Source: Tricholoma matsutake (taxonomy: Eukaryota > Basidiomycota > Agaricomycetes > Agaricales > Tricholomataceae). From it: a stretch of 64,000 nt of DNA. The stretch lies in contig AP026550.1 of the NCBI GenBank assembly GCA_026075535.2, forward strand, positions 1,550,001-1,614,000, in the 5' to 3' direction. The stretch's first letter is position 1. Every line of letters starts with the position of its first letter. Shown here piece by piece: positions 16,908 to 44,046 of this stretch. Position numbers and translations under genes: made by a program. The notes beneath the pieces are model-generated. The model was not told the DNA's origin and searched no databases. It was given only the letters and a program-made list of their open reading frames with translations.

Positions 16908-19900
16908 CCCCTCTCTAAGATGGATCGCCCCGATGCATTCAAAATCGCATACGAAGGCTGCCCTTGCCTCCTCCAAGCTATCCCTCATGCGTTCTGTGAA
17001 CTCATTCACCGTCTCGATGTGTGAGGGAGTTTGGCGAGGTTCAAATCTCATGTGTGGATGTTGTCCAGTGTCTAAGAGGAAAGGGGTCTGTTGAGTGGAA
17101 GCATGGACATGGTTGTTGTATCTGAACTCGGCCAAAGGAAGGAGATCATCCCAATCGTCCTGGCGTTCATTGACAAAGAGGCGGATGTACTGCTCCAGTT
17201 CCTGGTTGACTCGCTCCGTCTGGCCATCAGTTTGTGGGTGATAAGTGGTTGAAGCGAGGAGTTTGATCCCCAGGAGTCAGTACAGCTCACGAGTGAACTC
17301 TGCCATGAACTGAGGGCCACGATCTGAGAGGAAGGCACCAGGAAGTCCATGTAATTCTCACATGTGGTGGAGGTAGAGTTGAGTGGCACCTAGGGCACTG
17401 ACAGTGGTATGAGTGGGAATGAAGTGAGCATGTTTTCCCACTGAGTCAACTGTGCACATCACCGCATCAAACCCATTTGACTCTGGCAATTCCACCACAA
17501 AGTCGACACTGACGACATCCCAACGACTCTCTGGAACAGGAAGAGGGTGTAGCTCACCAATAGGCTTGCGACGAGGAACCTTGGTGCATAAGCAAAGGTC
17601 ACAAGTGCAACAATACTGACCAATGAGCCGCGACATTTGTGGCCACCAATAGTTCCGTGAGGTGAGCTCCAAGGTCTTCCAGTGTCCAGGGTGGCCAGCA
17701 ATCTGTGAGTCATGGTGTTGGGATATGATGCGCCGGCGAAGGTCTGGGTCATTGGGAACATAGATGCGATCCCTGAAATACAACAGGTCCTCCTTTTCAG
17801 CCCACTCTGCCGCACGTAAGGAAAGGGTCGATCCCTTCCTCAGTTCTTTAACAGCTCGGGCGACAACATCCTCATGTAAACCGCTACAGTTTGCGCGACG
17901 AATGTCACGTAGGATGTCCCACTCCTCGCCCTGGGGTGCGATGCCTTCCAGTGCCCAAATGGTGAACAGGTCTGGCTGCAACAGCACAATGTTTTGGTTG
18001 TCACCACTGCCATCCCCATGGTCTGCACGTCGGGATAGGGCATCGGTCTTCCCCATGCTGCAACCCGGATGGTGGTGCAAGGAGAAGTCAAATCTAGATA
18101 GATACAGGGACCAACGAGCTTGACGATGGTTCAATTTCTTGGCCGTCATGAAGTACTCGAGGTTCTTGTGATCCGTCCAAATTTCCACCTTGTGTTGGGC
18201 ACCCTCGAGGAAGTGTCGCCACTCCTCAAGCGCATGCATTATTGCCAACATCTCCTTGTCATGGATCTCGTAGTTTCGCTCTACAGCACTAAGGCTTTTG
18301 GAGTAGAACGCAACAGGATGCCACTTCTGGTCCTCCGGAGACTGCTGAGACAACACGGCGCCTGTCGCAAAGTCAGAACTGTCGGCTTCTACACAAAAAG
18401 GACGCGAATCATCAGCAAAGGTAAGGATCGGAGCAGAAGTGACCATCTCCTTAAGCTTTTCAAATGCCTCCTGTTGTGCATTATCCCACCTCCATGCCTC
18501 CTTTCCTGTCAAGTCGAACAGTGGTCGTGCATGATGTGAGAAATCCTTGATAAAACACTGATAGAAATTGATGAAGCCCAGGAAAGACTGCACCTCCTTC
18601 TTGTTTGTGGGCGTCGGCCAAGCTGTGACCCCGTTTACCTTGATAGGATCCATCTCCACTTGACCCTCTGAGATAATCAGGCTGAGGTACTCGATCTTGG
18701 TCCTTTCGAATTCGCATTTGTCCTGACAAAGGTAGAGTTTGTACCGTCAAAGTCGCTCTAGGACGAGGCGCGTGATGCAATGATGCTCTTCAACCATGCG
18801 AGTGAAGATGAGGATGTCATCGAGATAGATGCAGACAATGCCTTCAAGGATGAGGTCATGGAAGATGTCGTTCATCATGGTCTGAAAGGTGGCAGGGCTA
18901 TTAGTAAGGCCAAAGAACATGACAAGTGGTTCAAAAAGACCACGGTTGGTACGAAAGGCTGCCTTCCACTCATCTCCCTCCTTTATCCTCACATTATTAT
19001 AGCCCCAACAGACATCGAGCTTGGTGAAGTATCGGGCTCCATGGAGCTGGTTTATGAGTTTGGAGATGAGGGGTAGTGGGTAGCGATTTTTGACCGTGAT
19101 GTTGTTGAGCCTTCTGTAGTCTTGAACTGGTCGAAGTGAGCCATCCTTCTTCTTGACAAAGAAAAAGGGAGAGGCCATGGGTGACTTCGATGGTCGAATA
19201 CATCCAGAGGCCAGGTGCTCGTCAATGAACTGGTCAAGCTGCCGTTGTTCTTCCGGAGAGAGAGGATAGACCTTGCAGGATGAAGGGGTTGCGCCGGGGG
19301 TGAGTTCAATCGCGTGATCCCATGGCTTGCGTGCAGGAAGAGAGTCGAATGACTCCTTGGAGAACACGTCTTCAAACTCATGGAGATGAGGGAGTAAGGA
19401 GTTAGTAGAGGATTTAGCAGCGTTGTTTTTGTGGAAGGCCTCGGCGAGGCGTTGGGATATGTTCGATGTGGCACACACCTCATGCGATGAACGAATCGCA
19501 GTGTAGAAGATCTGATCACCCTCCTCCACTTCCTCTGGGTCCTCATCATCATCATCTGAGTCTGGCATTAGATCAGGAACCCCTTCCAATTCCACTTCAG
19601 GTATAGGCAGGGGTCCAGCACAACACTTCTGAGTTCGTTGTATTGCCGCCTTCTGTCCATGACGTTCTTGCCTGGCTTCTGTGAAACACGTCCAACAGCG
19701 GGATGGACATCGGCTCATGGTAACCTCCCCGGTATGCCAGTCGACCTCTGGGTTATGGTCTCGAAGCCATGGATATCCCAAAATCACCTTTTGCTTTCCT
19801 AATTGAGTGACAGCAAAAAGGGCATGCTCACTATGATCTTTGTAACGGAGAACCAGGTCTGCAACCTCTCAGATGGCACCAGCTTCATTTGGGGATCCAT

Positions 19901-25981: not shown

Positions 25982-28900
25982 ATCGTATGCCCTCACTGCC
26001 TGTCCATAACTGCTTTGAAGTCTTGTCAGTTGAATCCCCGGAGAATGAATCCATTTCTGTGACTGCTCCCCTCTCTGACCCTTCAAAGTTGGCTAAAGAC
26101 GTACCTGCTCTCCCCATCTCTCCTTCTACTCCACATCCCAAAATTAAATCATGGGAGCATAAACTACCACGCAAGTATATTGTGGCATCCACTCCCTCTG
26201 CACATTCCTTAAACCTAGCCATCGAACTGCAGATGACCGACACTGGACAGATACTTGGTGTCTCTGCGCTCCTGGACTCTGGTGCGACTGGTCTCTTCAT
26301 CGATTCCCATCTGGTACAACAACATTGTCTAAATACTCGCTCACTCTCATGTCCGATACCTGTATATAACATGGATGGATCCCCAAATGAAGCTGGTGCC
26401 ATCTGAGAGGTTGCAGACCTGGTTCTCCGTTACAAAGATCATAGTGAGCGTGCCCTTTTTGCTGTCACTCAATTAGGAAAGCAAAAGGTGATTTTGGGAT
26501 ATCCATGGCTTCGAGACCATAACCCAGAGGTCGACTGGCGCACCGGGGAGGTTACCATGAGCCAATGTCCATCCTGCTGTCAGACATGTTTCACAGAAGC
26601 CAGGCAAGAACGTCGTGGACAGAAGGCGGCAATACAACGAACTCAGAAGTGTTGTGCTGGACCCCTGCCTATACCTGAAGTGGAATTGGAAGGGGTTCCT
26701 GATCTAATGCCGGACTCGGATGATGATGATGAGGACCCAGAGGAAGTGGAGGAGGGTGATCGGATCTTCTACACTGCGATTCGCTCATCGCATGAGGTGT
26801 GTGCCACATTGAACATATCCCAACGCCTCGCCGAGGCCTTCCACAAAAACAACGCTGCTAAATCCTCTACTAACTCCTTAATCCCTCATCTCCATGAGTT
26901 TGAAGACGTGTTCTCCAAGGAGTCATTTGACTCTCTTCCTGCGCGTAAGCCATGGGATCACGCGATTGAACTCACCCCCGGCGCAACCCCTTCATCCTGC
27001 AAGGTCTATCCTCTCTCTCCGGAAGAACAACGGCAGCTTGACCAGTTCATTGACGAGCACCTGGCCTCTGGATGTATTCGACCATCGAAGTCACCCATGG
27101 CCTCTCCCTTTTTCTTTGTCAAGAAGAAGGATGGCTCACTTCGACCAGTTCAAGACTACAGAAGGCTCAACAACATCACGGTCAAAAATCGCTACCCACT
27201 ACCCCTCATCTCTGAACTCGTAAACCAGCTCCGTGGAGCCTGATACTTCACCAAGCTCGATGTCCATTGGGGCTATAATAATGTGAGGATAAAGGAGGGA
27301 GATGAGTGGAAGGCAGCCTTTCGTACCAACCGTGGTCTTTTTGAACCGCTTGTCATGTTCTTTGGCCTTACTAATAGCCCTGCCACCTTTCAGACCATGA
27401 TGAATGACATCTTCCATGACCTCATCCTCGAAGGCATTGTCTGCATCTATCTCGACGACATTCTCATCTTCACTCGCATGGTTGAAGAGCACCGTCGCAT
27501 CACGCGCCTCGTCCTAGAGTGACTTCGACGGTACAAACTCTACCTTTGTCAGGACAAATGCGAGTTCGAAAGGACCAAGATCGAGTACCTCGGCCTGATT
27601 ATCTCGGAGGGTCAAGTGGAGATGGATCCTATCAAGGTAAACGGGGTCACAGCTTGGCCGACACCCATGAACAAGAAGGAGGTGCAGTCTTTCCTGGGCT
27701 TCATCAATTTCTATCGGCGTTTTATCAAGGATTTCTCACATCATGCATGACCACTGTTCAACTTGACAGGAAAGGAGGCATGGAGGTGGGATAATGCACA
27801 ACAGGAGGCGTTTGAAAAGCTTAAGGAGATGGTCACTTCTGCTCCGATCCTTACCTTTGCTGACGATTCGTGTCCTTTTCATGTAGAAGCTGACAGTTCT
27901 GACTTTGCGACGGGCGCCATGTTGTCTCAGCCATCTCCAGAGGACCAGAAGTGGCATCCTGTTGTGTTCTACTCCAAAAGCCTTAGTGCTGTAGAGCGAA
28001 ACTACGAGATCCATGACAAGGAGATGTTGGCAATAATGCATGCGCTTGAGGAGTGGCGACACTTCCTTGAGGGTGCCCAACACAAGGTGGAAATTTGGAC
28101 GGATCACAAGAACCTCAAGTACTTCATGACAGCCAAGAAATTGAACCGTCGTCAAGCTCGTTGGTCCCTGTATCTATCTAGATTTGACTTCTCCTTACAC
28201 CACCGTCCGGGTTGCAGCATGGGGAAGACCGATGCCCTATCCCGACATGCAGACCATGGGGATGGCGGTGGTGACAACCAAAACATTGTGCTGTTGCAGC
28301 CAGACCTGTTCACCATTTGGGCACTGGAAGGCATCGCACCCCAGGGCGAGGAGTGGGACATCCTACGTGACATTCGTCGCGCAAACCGTAGCAGTTTACA
28401 TGAGGATGTTGTCGCCCGAGCTGTTAAAGAACTGAGGAAGGGATCGACCCTTTCCTTACGTGCGGCAGAGTGGGCTGAAAAGGAGGACCTGTTGTATTTC
28501 AGGGATCGCATCTATGTTCCCAATGACCCAGACCTTTGCCGGCGCATCATATCCCAACACCATGACTCACAGATTGCTGGCCACCCCGGACACTGGAAGA
28601 CCTTGGAGCTCACCTCATGGAACTATTGGTGGCCACAAATGTCGCGGCTCATTGGTCAGTATTGTTGCACTTGTGACCTTTGCTTACGCACCAAGGTTCC
28701 TCGTCGCAAGCCTATTGGTGAGCTACACCCTCTTCCTGTTCCAGAGAGTCGTTGGGATGTCGTCAGTGTCGACTTTGTGGTGGAATTGCCAGAGTCAAAT
28801 GGGTTTGATGCGGTGATGTGCACAGTTGACTCAGTGGGAAAATGCACTCACTTCATTCCCACTCACACCACTGTCAGTGCCCTAGGTGCCGCTCGACTCT

Positions 28901-29880
28901 ACCTCCACCACGTGTGGAAATTACATGGACTTCCTGGTGCCTTCCTCTCGGATCGTGGCCCTCAGTTCATGGCAGAGTTCACTCATGAGCTGTACCAACT
29001 CCTGGGGATCAAACTCCTCGCTTCAACCGCTTATCACCCACAAACTGATGGCCAGACGGAGCGAGTCAACCAGGAACTGGAGCAGTACATCCGCCTCTTT
29101 GTCAATGAACGCCAGGACGATTGGGATGATCTCCTTCCTTTGGCCGAGTTCAGATACAACAACCATGTCCATGCTTCCACTCAACAGACCCCTTTCCTCT
29201 TAGACACTGGACAACATCCATGCATGGGATTTGAACCTCGCCAAACTCCCTCACACATCGAGACGGTGAATGAGTTCACAGAACGCATGAGGGATAGCTT
29301 GGAGGAGGCAAGGGCAGCCTTAGCAAAGGCGAAGGACGACATGGCACGATTTTACCACCAACGGCACTCCCCAACCCCTCAGTACAAGGTTGGTGATCAA
29401 GTTTATCTTGACTCCAGTGACATTTCCACTACACGTCCATCCAAGAAACTCGCTCATCGCTTCTTGGGACCTTTCCCCATTGTCAAGTGCGTTGGAACAC
29501 ATGCCTATCGTCTATGCCTCCCAGCCTCCATGTCCAGACTCCATCCCATCTTCCATGTCGTCAAATTGCTTCCAGCTCCCCTAGATCCATTCCCGGGACG
29601 CCATTCACACCCACCACCACCACCTACAGTGATCGAGGGAGAACCCCAATATGAAGTCGAGTCAATCTTGGACAGCCGTTTACGTCGAGGAAAACTCCAG
29701 TATTTGGTACATTGGAAGGGTTATGGGTATGAGGAGAACTCATGGGTTGAAGAGTCTGACATAAATGCCCCTCGGTTAATCAAGGAATTCCACCGATGGC
29801 ACACTGCTGCACCACGTTGCATTCAAGTCACGGACTTTGGTCGTATACGATTTCGAATGCATCGGGGTGATGCATCTTAG
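25936..29880 (+). pseudogene. pol of copy C (protease, RT, RNase H, integrase, chromodomain)
   Basis: Domains in order are protease (LLDSGATGLFIDS, near 26270), reverse transcriptase with YLDDIL (near 27450), RNase H from about 27870, and integrase with its zinc finger and core (HPQTDGQTERVNQELEQY near 29040). A chromodomain (YEVESILDSRLRRGKLQYLV, then WKGYGYEENSWVEESD) lies near 29650-29780. The last part, 27763-29880, is a single uninterrupted frame of 705 codons. TGA codons at about 26404, 27241, 27521 and 27748 interrupt the rest; three of the four correspond to CGA to TGA and the first to TGG to TGA. Confidence 0.9.
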
Positions 29881-38475: not shown

Positions 38476-41400
38476 CTAAGTTATCAAGCCATCAATAACA
38501 TTTTGCATGATCTTGACTGGATTGGACTTGGAAGAAAATTACAGGTGAGTTTGACCAGAGCAAATAATTGGATTCTGAATTTCATACTTGGTCCTGAAGT
38601 CCCACAGATTAAAATCAATATGCAGTGGCAAAAGTACAATACACACCTTCTTTGGGATGAAAAAAAGTGATAATAATGTAGCTGCACAGAAAGATGGGAA
38701 GCTTTACTTACAAGCTGTAATCCCATGTTAGCCAAATTAATTTTGTGTCAAGAACAAGAACATACAAACTAGTAACATTGCACAAAAGTATCAGAGATCA
38801 TTTTGACCATCAGACAAGTAACATACCTGCTGAAGAGACAGCAGAGAATAAATTAGATGAGAACCCAGGATAGTCAACAGAAATATCCACATTCTGCAAA
38901 AGTGTAAAGTGAGTGCTAGCATTAACTACAAAGTGGAACATACAGACAATCTATAATGAAACATAATGTCACTTCTCAAAAGTAACATGACCAATGGCAC
39001 AGATAAAATACTTACAACCTACAGCATAGGAATATAATGGTCAAAATGGAGTATCCCTTAACAAAATACATAACACACATTCTGCAAAATTGCCAAGGGT
39101 TACAAAGCTAGAACATAGTAGATAAACCAAGGATGCACATACCTCCTAAATGGCCAGATATATGTGAGTCAATTAAAGAGTAGCCAGTTGTATGTCAAAA
39201 ATACATACCCACTAGTAAAGAAAACAAAAAAAGGAAAAAGCATAGGAAACACTAAATTAGCTGTGCACTGTGCTGAATTTCAATGCTGCTACTTACATCC
39301 TGAGGGATAACAGAGCCAGCACTGAATCAGCTGTGCGCTCAGCTGAATTTCAATGCTGCTACTTACACCCTGAGGGATAACAGGGCCAACACTGAATTAG
39401 CTGTGCATTCAGCTGAATTCCAATGCTGCTACTTACATGCTGAGGGATAACAGGGCCAACACTGAATCAGCTATGGACTGCTGAATTTCAATGCTGTTAC
39501 TTACACACTGAGGGATAACAGGGCCAACACTGGATCAGCTATGGACTGCTGAATTTCAATGCTGCTACTTACATACTGAGGAATAACAGGGCCAACACTA
39601 AATCAGCTGTGCACTCTGCTGAATTTCAATGCTGCTACTTACATCCTGAGGGATAACAAGGCCAAGACTGAATTAGCTGTGTACTGGTGAATTTCAATGC
39701 TGCTACTTACATTCTGAGGATAACAGGGCCAACACTGATTCAGCTGTGCACTCTGCTGAATTTCAATGCTGCTACTTACACACTGAGGGATCACAGGGCC
39801 AACACTAGATCAGCTGTGCACTCTGCTGAATTTCAATGCTACTACTTACATGCTGAGGGATAACAGAGCCAACACTGAATCAGTTGTGCACTCTGCTGAA
39901 TTTCAATGCTGCTACTTACATGCTGAGGGATAACAGAACCAACACTGAATCAGCTGTGCACTTTGCTGAATTTCAATGCTGCTACTTACACGCTGAGGGA
40001 TAACAGGGCCAACACTGGATCAGCTGTGCACTCTGCTGAATTTCAATGCTGCTACTTACATGCTGAGGGATAACAGGGCCAATACTAAATCAGCTGTGCA
40101 CTGTGCTAAATTTCAATGCTGCTACTTACAAGCTGACAAATAACAGAGCCAACACTGAATCAGCTGTGCACTCTGCTGAATTTCAATGCTGCTACTTACA
40201 TACTAAGGGATAACAGGGCCAACACTGAATCAGCAGTGCACTTATTCAGAGATTATACTCACCATCTGCAATTCCATGCAGATAAATCAAAACATGCTGG
40301 TCAACTTTGTTCATGATATTCTGATATGTGGACACCCACCAACTAGTCAGTTCTAGTATATTAGCACTATCCCTGATAAGGCATAAAGCATGCGCTCACA
40401 TCCTATACATAATTTCTATGGTTAGTGTTCCATGTTTATAGGAATATATTCACATACCTTCAAAGTGTTTCCCAGCCTCCTGATTGTTTTTGTCACCTTG
40501 GACAATAGCACCTCTTCTGCCTTTTTTTATCACACTAGTAGTTAGCTCTCTTTATAACAGAAATAAAATAATATAGAACTATATACCTTCAATATCTTAT
40601 ATGCTTCTTGTAATGAATCCCTAATGGCTATAACTTCCTCCTGGTGTATACCTTTAAGATTATATAGCCAATGTCTCAGCCATTGGCATGCAATCTTGCC
40701 CAAAAAGCCCTTTAATAGTTGTTTTTGTGATCTGATATTGGTTTGACCACCTGTGATAGCTAGTAAAGATGCCAGATGATAACACCAATATTGACATACA
40801 TATGCCATGGCTATTGATGGCAATCCATTAGCACCCAGATATTCCATGCAAGCTGTTACAAGTTGAATGCATTTATCCATCATGATTCCATGCTGCTCGC
40901 TAAAGGAGCTGAAGTAGCCTCCAGATCGGGTGTGGTCCTGAACAAAATCACCAAAGGATGCATGATAAGGCACAACAGCCTCAGTATCAGATGCCGGAAT
41001 ATTCAGAATTGATCTAGTTCCATGCAGAGCAACCCTGATTTGTCCTGGATCCAGCTGCAGAAACTCTCCAAGATCCACAATATTCAATGGTTTTTGAAGA
41101 AGAATGATGGCTGATATTACAAGCTGTATGTTTTTGCCTTTGGCTGATTCCAGAACTTGACGATAAATAGAATCAAGGCCAGCATGTGCCTTGAGAGCAT
41201 ACTGGAGCTTTCTATGAGGCAGCTCATCTCCTTCATCCACAAATCTGAGTAATGTTGAGATATAGATGAATATCCCCTGAGACTTCTCAACAACTTCTTC
41301 AATTTCTGCATCTGAAGGCCAGAGCTTTGGCAAATATTTCTGCCAGTCTTGTTTTTTGCTAATATGTGCAAAGCCAGAGTGGCAGAGCCTCCAAATATCA

Positions 41401-42211
41401 TGAACAGCACTGTAATCCTGCAGAGCCACTTTCTGTATAATGGCAGGAGCAGCATGGAATTCATGCTCAATTCACTCTTCAGGTCGACTTGTCACCAGAA
41501 AGCAAGCATGTGGAAAGAGTGCAGGAGCTGTTTTCACAAGTAGCTTGATCAGCTGTGTTTGGTGGGTGTCAGAATCACACTCATCAAGCCCATCAATTAT
41601 AATGGGAATCTTGGGCATTGATGGAGGACCTGCCATAACAGCCATAATAGGGTCTACAACAAGCTTGTGGAACTGAGTTTCAAAATTGGCTGCAAGAACC
41701 CTGGGGTCACTTTGGATAGCTTTGCCTATAGACTGCTGTGCAGAAGGAAGTGCCTTGTATGCAGCTAGCTGGTATGCAAGGGTGGCAAAGAGTTTGGTTA
41801 GTGCATTGCAATCAGTCCTGCCACGGGAGAAGAAGGTGAGGACAACTGATTGCTTGTCAAGGAATTCTTTGGCAATGGTGGAAGCAATGGAAGATTTCCC
41901 TGTACCAGCAGGCCCATGTAACCAGCATATAGGCTGTGCATGATCATCCATGGCCCACTCCAAGATATCTTTGATGACACGCTCACGGGTGCCTGGTTCA
42001 CAGATTGATGCATGTTGGTCTTGACGCTCCTGCGAGTTGTATTCGGCATTGAATGCAGCATGTGGCTTCAACATTTCAAGTACAGATCCTGAATATTGGC
42101 CATCATGAGTGCTCATTAATAAAGAGGACAACACTCACTATGTTTGCCACTATTATCCACAAATAGGCCTCCATTGATAGTAAAACGAGAGCTGTGGTCA
42201 AAAAGTGGCAT
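38476..42211 (-). pseudogene. NACHT NLR gene with a long chain of single-codon exons (two lesions)
   Basis: Start Met at 42211 gives MPLFDHSSRFTINGGLF. Exons are 42139-42211, 40587-42088 and 40458-40545. A NACHT domain is clear: Walker A GPAGTGKSS, Walker B IIIDGLDECD, and sensor region FLVTSRPEE, followed by a helical winged-helix-like region. Such proteins are cytosolic NTPase receptors linked to heterokaryon or pathogen recognition in fungi. Two lesions are an in-frame TGA at 41472-41474 (expected CGA) and one extra A in the run at 40522-40528; correcting the run gives the helix VLLSKVTKTIRRLGNTLK ending exactly at a GTATGT donor. From there the sequence reads as phase-0 single-codon exons at 40400, 40340 and 40263, fourteen in the tandem array, then 39209, 39143, 39079, 39016, 38948, 38891, 38830, 38766, 38712 and 38647. 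A 6-nt exon (38588-38593) and a last exon (38476-38526) reading SNPVKIMQNVIDGLIT then stop follow. The splice model is inferred. Confidence 0.6.
39253..40262 (-). repeat. Tandem array of intron-plus-one-codon units within the NLR gene
   Basis: Fourteen variable triplets begin at 39297, 39367, 39437, 39505, 39573, 39643, 39711, 39780, 39850, 39920, 39990, 40060, 40130 and 40200, with spacing of 68-70 bp. Read on the minus strand each unit is a GTAAGTAGCAG donor, a CTGAT or CTAAT branch-like motif, a CTCAG acceptor (once GTCAG, once CTTAG), then three bases, then the next GTAAGT. The intron part is nearly constant. The triplets are, 5' to 3', TAT CTT CAT CGT CAT CAT TGT, then AAT GAT TAT TGT CAT GGT GAT. 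None is a stop in phase 0. Confidence 0.85.
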
Positions 42212-42518: not shown

Positions 42519-43951
42519 ATGTCTGGTACAGTATCCAAGTCTCCTCTTCGTTCAATTCCATACTCACTCCAGCCAGACGACCAGATATTCATCTCATCCC
42601 CGCCCTTCGACAGCATCTCATCCGTTCGGTATTCACCCACAAACCCAGATCATCTCCTCGTATCTTCATGGGACACCGTACGCCATCCCACCGCACTCTT
42701 AACCAACCAAAACTAACAACTAGCAACCCGCAGTCAGTCCGATTATACCAAATAGGTAACGAGTCCGAGCAAATAGCGAAATTCGACCACAGAGCAGCCG
42801 TCTTGGCATGTTGCTTCAACTCGAACGGTACACATGGGTATAGTGGGGGATTAGATACGACCGTCAGAGTGTTCGTTCGCCCATTTTATCTGTCTTTTAC
42901 GCGTTCTGTTAACACGGTACTTGGCATAGGCTAGACCTCGGATCGGAGAGTCCACGTCTTCTCGGATCGCATAACGATAGTATATCAAGTATGACATTTT
43001 CACAACAATCCAGTACGCGTACCCTTCCACCCACCCATCCCGTCTCTCTCATTCCACCCCATCCACAGACATCCTAATAACCGGTTCCTGGGACCGCACG
43101 CTCCGCTTCTGGGACCCACGCGCCGCCTCAGCCCAACAATCCTCGCACGATACACCGGAGCGGATATACCAGCTCGACCTAGTGAACCATACCCTCGTCG
43201 TGGCGATGGCCAGTCGTCTCTTCCATATCTACGATATACGGAAGATGGACTCCCCCACGCAGCAGCGCGAGAGTAGTCTCAAGTATATGACGCGCTCGTT
43301 GGCGTGTATGCCTGATGGCGAGGGTGGGTTTTATACTCTCTCTTTTGTTTTTTGTGCTCGTTTGGAGGTACTGATATGGTTTTTTTGTTTGTTAGGATAT
43401 GCTACGGCTTCGGTGGAGGGTAGGATAGCAGTGGAGTATTTCAACCCCTCCCCGGCTATCCAAGAGAAAAAATACGCGTTCAAGTGTCATCGACAGACTA
43501 TCGACGACGTAGACCACGTATGGCCCGTAAACGCTCTAGCTTTCCACCCACGGTAATTTTTTTTCTTTTTCTTTTCCCTCATCCCCTAGATACTGACATA
43601 AACCACCACTACTACTACCTATACCATCCAGCTACTCCACATTCGCCTCCGCAGGCTCAGACGCCACTGTCTCCATCTGGGACCACAAAGTGAAAAAACG
43701 CTTGCGGCAGTACCCGAAATACGCCGGACCCGTATCGTCTCTGGCGTTCAACTGTGATGGGACAAAGTTGGCTGTTGCGGTGAGCTATGCGTGGGATGAG
43801 GGTGAGGCTGGGCTGAAGACGGCGGAAAGACCGGCCGTGGCGATTAGGAAACTTGGGGATGAGGTCAAGGTGTGTTTGTGTTTTTTCGCTTTTTTGTTGG
43901 TACTGATGGGTTTGGGTTGGGTGTTAGCCGAAGGGATGGACGGGTGCTTGA
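42519..43951 (+). CDS. BUB3: Mitotic checkpoint WD40 protein Bub3
   Basis: Exons 42519..42677, 42734..42870, 42930..43012, 43069..43323, 43396..43552, 43632..43869, 43928..43951 give 350 residues. WD repeats follow the Bub3 pattern, including SSVRYSPTNPDHLLVSSWDT, GGLDTTVRVLDLG, ILITGSWDRTLRFWDPRA, and the family signatures QQRESSLKYMTR and GRIAVEYFNPSP plus KYAFKCHR. Bub3 binds the GLEBS motifs of Bub1 and Mad3 at kinetochores in the spindle checkpoint. Intron 2 uses a GTTCGT donor and the last exon codes only eight codons including the stop. The gene is divergent from the NLR (307 bp between starts) and convergent with the next gene (95 bp). Confidence 0.92.
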
Positions 43952-44046
43952 AACTTGGTTAACGTTGGTGATGTCGGTCAGGTGTCGGTGGTTGATAAAA
44001 ACCTATTTATGGTTGGTTGGCGGGTTACAGAGGTGGTTGCAAACTG

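Follow-up and report, generated by a model that had tools for sequence, protein, structure and literature searches.

A predicted chain of single-codon exons behind the NACHT domain of an NLR gene family in Tricholoma matsutake

Can part of a protein be built almost residue by residue, from exons of three nucleotides each? The question is raised by an NLR gene of the basidiomycete Tricholoma matsutake, which lies in a stretch of 64,000 nt (contig AP026550.1 of assembly GCA_026075535.2, positions 1,550,001 to 1,614,000, forward strand) that we call the window. Behind the last ordinary exon of this gene the minus strand falls into short intron-like pieces separated by exactly three bases, which a first-pass annotation had read as a chain of about 27 single-codon exons. 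The predicted layout of the gene, in window coordinates and in the order of transcription, is as follows.

42139..42211, minus strand: putative first coding exon, 73 nt; the start codon, ATG at 42211, is predicted from the sequence
40587..42088, minus strand: main NLR exon with the NPHP3_N/NACHT domain (Pfam on the spliced protein)
41472..41474, minus strand: TGA, in frame, after SRPEE inside the main NACHT exon
40458..40520, minus strand: small exon 2, AEEVLLSKVTKTIRRLGNTLK, both ends in phase 0, read from the sequence
40263..40402, minus strand: three non-repetitive single-codon exons, D (40402-40400), L (40342-40340) and M (40265-40263)
39248..40242, minus strand: tandem array, period 70, 14.3 copies, each unit an intron plus a codon; codons YLHRHHCNDYCHGD
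38647..39211, minus strand: ten non-repetitive single-codon exons, W E N V I N Q F L K
38588..38593, minus strand: exon of two codons, D Q
38476..38526, minus strand: final coding exon, SNPVKIMQNVIDGLIT, and stop

By domain the window NLR is a fungal NACHT STAND protein. Its spliced product scored above the curated Pfam cut-offs for PF24883 (E 2.5e-26, 93.2 bits, cut-off 24.8) and PF05729 (E 4.2e-12, 46.7 bits, cut-off 26.7), and the same scan gave no ankyrin match. Searches for Rfam families and tRNAs gave no match, and viral contigs scanned with P0001 and with alignment A1 contained no relatives. The main NACHT exon is 54-71% identical to its nine best relatives. Its frame is interrupted once, by the TGA, in place of which Q or H was found in all seven relatives read (P0001-P0004, P0006-P0008). 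Retention of the intron after the DQ exon (donor GTATGA) would end the protein as DQV-stop. Elsewhere in the window, WD40-like beta-propeller ORFs lie at 42981-43959 on the plus strand, opposite to the NLR (Pfam hits all below curated cut-offs). Retroelement frames, which we take to be Ty3/gypsy-like, lie on opposite strands at 17361-18746 (minus) and 27751-29877 (plus); they carry RNase H-like and integrase zinc-binding domains and one chromodomain.

The chain consists of 27 consecutive AG-NNN-GT sites on the minus strand, from 40402 to 38647, with three sites before the array, 14 within it and ten after it. All 27 were found where the first-pass annotation had placed them, give or take a coordinate convention of 1-2 bases. 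The remaining details of that annotation were borne out when the sequence was read again: introns between sites of 51-85 nt, all joints in phase 0, two weak but real donors (GTCTGT and GTGGAT) and the spliced peptide DLM-YLHRHHCNDYCHGD-WENVINQFLK, followed by DQ and then SNPVKIMQNVIDGLIT. On the plus strand of the window no comparable chain exceeds four sites, and the longest loose chain in simulated 64-kb sequences (300 with the composition of the window, 300 with that of its flanks) has six. The non-repetitive part downstream of the array, taken alone, is a chain of ten against the same simulated maximum of six; with the donor rule GTNNG it shrinks to five, and simulations under the narrower rule GT[AG]NG reach at most three. 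The three sites upstream of the array, taken alone, are within chance. A branch-like motif, CTNAY, stands 8-45 nt before the AG in 22 of the 29 introns after 40458 and is absent from seven. Three things had gone unremarked in the first-pass annotation: the in-frame TGA of the main NACHT exon, the much greater variability of the array codons than of the array introns, and the many sister genes of like architecture.

The introns outside the array had been described as unrelated to each other, and this needs some qualification. Fourteen of the 16 introns compared do not match the array unit (z <= 2.5), and in 91 pairings among themselves these 14 are mostly unlike, with a few weak pairs (best z 4.1). 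The two introns that border the array, however, match its unit (z 10.5 and 11.6). They are hybrids, part unique and part array sequence: the 3' half of the unit recurs in the upstream one, and its 5' half in the downstream one. On the simplest account, one existing single-codon exon with its flanking half-introns would have been amplified by unequal exchange, and the non-repetitive one-codon exons would therefore be older than the array. A chance chain and a single long intron were both rejected in view of the simulations and the unrelated introns outside the array.

All 14 codons of the window array have the form NNT. When 13 full units are aligned and gaps ignored, codon positions 1 and 2 rank first among the 70 columns in variability; if gaps are scored as letters, both columns of a 2-base deletion outrank codon position 2. 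Parsimony assigns 6, 4 and 0 steps to codon positions 1, 2 and 3, and 34 steps in total to the 65 intron columns (joint Poisson P 1.7e-7 for codon columns 1 and 2).

The window gene is one of a family. The genome from which the window comes was surveyed (161,040,721 bases in 13 contigs) with a PF24883 profile, which gave 97 matches; 90 were examined and seven left out. Thirty places were read together with the 1.5 kb to either side, and the other 60 through 701-nt stretches at the expected start of a chain, a survey that chains displaced by inserted DNA would escape. A chain behind the NACHT exon was found at 25 of the 90 places, and at one more, L028, an array precedes that exon. Sixteen of the 25, the window gene included, are among the first 30 places, as is L028. 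The other nine (L062, L065, L067, L074, L079, L081, L085, L093 and L114) were picked by inspection out of 32 flagged places. Among the rejected places, 21 are ankyrin coding repeats (all 21 were translated; L066, L073 and L107 were also scanned against Pfam), and L083 and L088 were dropped as weak and heterogeneous. Ankyrin-bearing NACHT genes occur in this genome, and they are the ones excluded as false chain matches. L085 (G000:C6:2117493-2118193, minus) has eight one-codon sites that are non-repetitive, without an array, and is perhaps a further lineage of the family.

Chain lengths were counted with GT donors only and with stop codons excluded by rule; when GC donors were permitted, a spurious LVIERE was added to the window gene, hence the choice of GT-only lengths. 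At the TGA units of L027 and L029 the stop-excluding rule slid by four bases, so that a C read there stands for a TGA triplet. The chains number 42 sites in L016, 37 in L013, 34 in L027, 27 in the window gene and in L021, 26 in L028, 25 in L015, 21 in L038, 18 in L020 and L034, 17 in L029, 15 in L011, L023 and L024, 11 in L026, six in L033 and four in L018; a few of the terminal sites (for instance the first in L038 and the last in L028) are probably spurious. The chain of L021 rises to 49 once GC donors are admitted, and the DNA of its array is about 3.4 kb long, equivalent to some 48 units. The variable segment of the sister genes ranges from 3 to about 48 units. In the array of L021 (G000:C3:11608890-11612345) several GAT units have GC in place of GT donors, four in the unfiltered count.

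By their first codons the genes fall into a K-L-R group and a K-F-[MV] group, with the D-L-M of the window gene at the matching place. The intron unit of the KF genes was found at about 15 places (a lower bound), 13 of them within about 4 kb of a NACHT match. Two KF arrays far from any such match (G000:C12:3302731-3303726 and G000:C13:1192808-1193011) are relics or unrecognised genes. The KLR unit occurs at at least 13 places. Ten of them have a NACHT match no more than 1.4 kb away; for the other three (C13:5653010, C13:5725563 and C10:4669065) the distance is 6.4-8.0 kb. The KLR array of L020 is apparently split by about 5.7 kb of other DNA (G000:C10:4669065-4677416), and C10:4669065 may be its continuation. 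The units of L028 and of the window gene were found at one place each, again as lower bounds. Upstream of the array in L013, L016, L023 and L024, GGAATCCAAAG is followed by GTGAG, an acceptor that abuts a donor and encloses an exon of zero length; the motif is present in four of the six KF genes searched and absent, by exact match, from L027 and L029. This site is possibly a recursive splice point.

Three lines of evidence argue, from the sequence, that the triplets are exons. The first is the conservation of the one-codon exons that follow the array. The window gene has W E N V I N at this place. Its counterpart is W K N V I D in L038 and in L026, W K D V I D in L034 and W K N L I D in L015, with a separate exon for every residue; in the KF genes either E K D V N M F or Q N D V D T F stands here. 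The window introns between these codons are unalignable with those of L038, L034 and L026 (z -1.3 to 2.6 in 18 comparisons), while the introns of L038 align well with those of L026 and L034.

The second is the concentration of variability on the codons. Fourteen arrays with at least six units were tested (L018, L026 and L033 have too few units and were left out), and codon positions 1 and 2 rank at or near the top when compared with 65-69 intron columns. Codon position 1 is unmatched by any intron column in 12 of the 14, and codon position 2 in 11, the exceptions having one or two such columns. The 14 arrays are not independent, as one intron unit is common to the KF genes and another to the KLR genes; the consensus agrees to 97-100% within each of the two groups, even across chromosomes. 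Five intron units (window, KF, KLR, L011 and L028) share the codon-variable pattern, although some pairings of unit consensus reach z 3-5 (KF versus L028 4.3-5.2) and not all five need be independent.

The third is the avoidance of stops. In an unfiltered count over 16 loci, two of 267 array triplets are stops versus 21.5 expected, and none of 20,000 shuffles of positions within genes was as low; the 267 triplets took in 13 of the 14 window codons and, from L033, one site that does not count as a unit of the array. There is no TAA against 51 TAT, and with other first bases the ratio NAA:NAT is 37:46. The test presumes free assortment of the codon positions, and its significance is overstated because array units share descent, which makes P too small, and because TTA and TCA, which are sense codons, do not occur either (3.1 and 2.4 expected). 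The third base is T or A in 265 of the 267 codons, and Tyr, Arg, Gly and Asp make up 57% of them. Over the 16 loci the third base depends on the second: G at position 2 goes with A at position 3 (GGA, CGA, AGA), and T at position 2 mostly with T.

What the window copy itself produces is a separate matter. Given the TGA in its NACHT exon this copy may be dead, and because of that TGA a full protein is probably not made from it. Several sister genes are broken too, in the frame of the NACHT exon or in the array. The arrays of L027 and L029 contain one stop triplet each, L015 and L023 each have an array unit in which a splice dinucleotide is gone, and in L018, L020 and L033 the first units are followed by other DNA. 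In the paralogues L013 and L016 the main exon is open. We give about even odds to the view that the window copy is a pseudogene and its chain a relic, the family being real with no product at this locus. The TGA apart, however, the main exon is open, 27 of 27 codon exons keep their splice dinucleotides and are free of stops, and the codon-centred variability of the window array is as strong as that of the sister genes; the TGA could be a recent loss, or an intact allele may exist. The finding at the level of the family is independent of whether the window copy is dead or alive.

A tree of 30 NACHT sequences groups the 16 genes with a C-terminal chain together with L025, with support of 92/88, which is below the threshold of 95/80; the window gene, L011 and L028 are long branches. 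L025 has no chain nearby, and an array lies about 7 kb away from it. L028 (G000:C2:3200085-3201856, plus), a distant NLR placed outside this group, carries its one-codon array in front of the NACHT exon. A possible initiator ATG immediately precedes a GTGCGC donor; the 24 one-codon sites of the array and GAT come next, after which the last intron is predicted to join in frame to the NACHT exon. Because of the grouping on the tree and the position of L028 elsewhere, the C-terminal layout most likely has a single origin that predates the split of these lineages, and the N-terminal array a separate one.

Taken as a whole, we favour the reading that the chain is the C-terminal part of the NLR, a hypervariable segment spliced codon by codon from a module-amplified array with conserved flanks, and we put its probability at roughly 80%. 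The sequence itself shows the sites, the arrays, the conserved flanks, the variability centred on codons and the spread through the family; splicing, its order, alternative splicing and a role in recognition are all things that we infer. Every amino acid of the variable segment would have its own exon of 3 nt, and the spliceosome would remove each of the 51-85-nt introns by intron definition. Removal would probably be sequential, each step adding one codon to a growing exon, since an exon of 3 nt is too small to hold both neighbouring splice complexes at once. Unequal exchange between introns would amplify the intron-codon-intron module and leave near-identical introns beside strongly diversified codons, and the conserved one-codon exons on either side would frame the hypervariable segment. 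The gene would encode an NLR carrying a hypervariable stretch for recognition or signalling, 14 residues long in the window gene. Alternative splicing could multiply the variants: as all exons are 3 nt and in phase 0 and the array splice sites are nearly alike, any subset could be skipped and the frame kept.

Splicing might instead be constitutive, giving one fixed peptide per gene, with diversity coming solely from turnover of the array in DNA. We regard this as a serious alternative, a little short of an even chance. Most array donors fit the consensus, the introns are short and of near-constant length, and array length and codons do differ among the genes; yet near-identical neighbouring sites make skipping likely, and alternative splicing has been reported for the micro-exons of Tuber (PMC4986451, PMC3689799, PMC9815663, as far as the passages on Tuber in these papers go). 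More tentatively, the array might be a codon library of up to about 48 codons, placed behind the NACHT domain and in one gene in front of it. Unequal exchange between near-identical introns would reshuffle this library, selection or a targeted process would diversify its codons with the introns kept uniform, and in-frame skipping would yield many receptor variants from a single gene, which together would amount to a somatic-like diversity system for immune receptors.

We think it unlikely that mobile, introner-like introns inserted at adjacent codon boundaries and that the codon variability is a by-product. The near-identity of KF introns, and of KLR introns, between chromosomes would suit such elements, but the hybrid border introns of the window array fit tandem duplication and the other flanking introns are unrelated to its unit. 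Furthermore, the KF, KLR and L028 units occur at arrays only, among the matches listed, and the window unit at its own place only, among the matches found; conserved flanking codons around a variable core are left unexplained by insertion. That the chain is non-coding, a tandem repeat in a long intron or 3' region with units that look like introns by chance, is very improbable: the array is indeed a tandem repeat and the window copy does have a stop upstream of the chain, but the introns of the ten-site chain beyond the array show no relation to its unit, paralogues conserve one-codon exons between unalignable introns, variability is centred on the codon columns, stops are avoided and the same pattern recurs in five intron units.

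If the segment is spliced as we read it, the family would have an extreme micro-exon architecture, in a basidiomycete far from the truffle in which exons of codon size have been described. It would offer a direct genetic handle on variation in the sensing part of fungal NLRs. Because intron and codon adjoin in every repeat, the introns would serve as an internal neutral ruler, against which diversifying selection could be measured directly. Gene annotation would be challenged, as prediction of such exons is unlikely, and a question would be posed for splicing, namely how dozens of 3-nt exons would be joined in order.

Among known systems, the micro-exon genes of Schistosoma contain many short in-frame exons, the skipping of which varies the protein. 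Their micro-exons are longer, not uniformly one codon, and belong to secreted parasite proteins, not NLRs; we know of no tandem intron array in them. In genes of this type most of the protein comes from short symmetrical exons, whereas in the window NLR only the C-terminal segment would do so and the NACHT part is one long exon. Recursive splicing, in which adjacent acceptor and donor sites allow stepwise removal of an intron, bears a likeness to the zero-exon AG/GT sites of L013, L016, L023 and L024; its known cases involve a handful of sites within long introns rather than dozens of coding steps.

Some fungal NLRs carry highly similar WD40, ANK or TPR repeats (PMC4986451, PMC9815663). As described in the relevant passages of these papers, they resemble the chain genes in having near-identical tandem units that change by unequal exchange. 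Their unit, however, is a protein repeat of tens of residues, whereas the chain unit is an intron plus one codon; in the chain genes the homogenised part (the intron) and the variable part (the exon) are therefore separated.

The closest counterpart is the truffle Tuber melanosporum, NLRs of which have tens of codon-sized, 3-bp micro-exons (Iotti et al. 2012, Fungal Biology 116:261, via PMC4986451, PMC3689799, PMC10197012 and PMC9815663). The first-pass annotation had called a micro-exon segment on an NLR very unusual. The segment itself is supported, at the sequence level, by the paralogues, the variability and the stops; its singularity is not, since according to the passages in the citing papers this type of codon-exon architecture is already known from this ascomycete. 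Open-licence PMC text yielded no description of exons of codon size in an NLR from a basidiomycete, and Tuber is absent from the names among the 120 of 784 relatives listed, many of which are nameless. Going by the citing passages, the nank family of T. melanosporum (NACHT-ANK in three of the four papers) is, like the matsutake chain genes, a fungal NACHT family with dozens of 3-bp exons; by sequence there are 27 in the window gene and 42 in L016. The citing authors describe the micro-exons as a source of diversity in the C-terminal recognition domain (PMC4986451, PMC3689799, PMC10197012, PMC9815663). Both fungi are ectomycorrhizal, Tuber as an ascomycete and matsutake as a basidiomycete. Near-identical introns with hypervariable codons, and an array before the NACHT domain, go unmentioned in the passages on Tuber. 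As these passages have it, nank bears ankyrin repeats, whereas the product of the window gene has no ankyrin match; for this reason we do not file the window NLR as a nank gene, though it may work in the same way.
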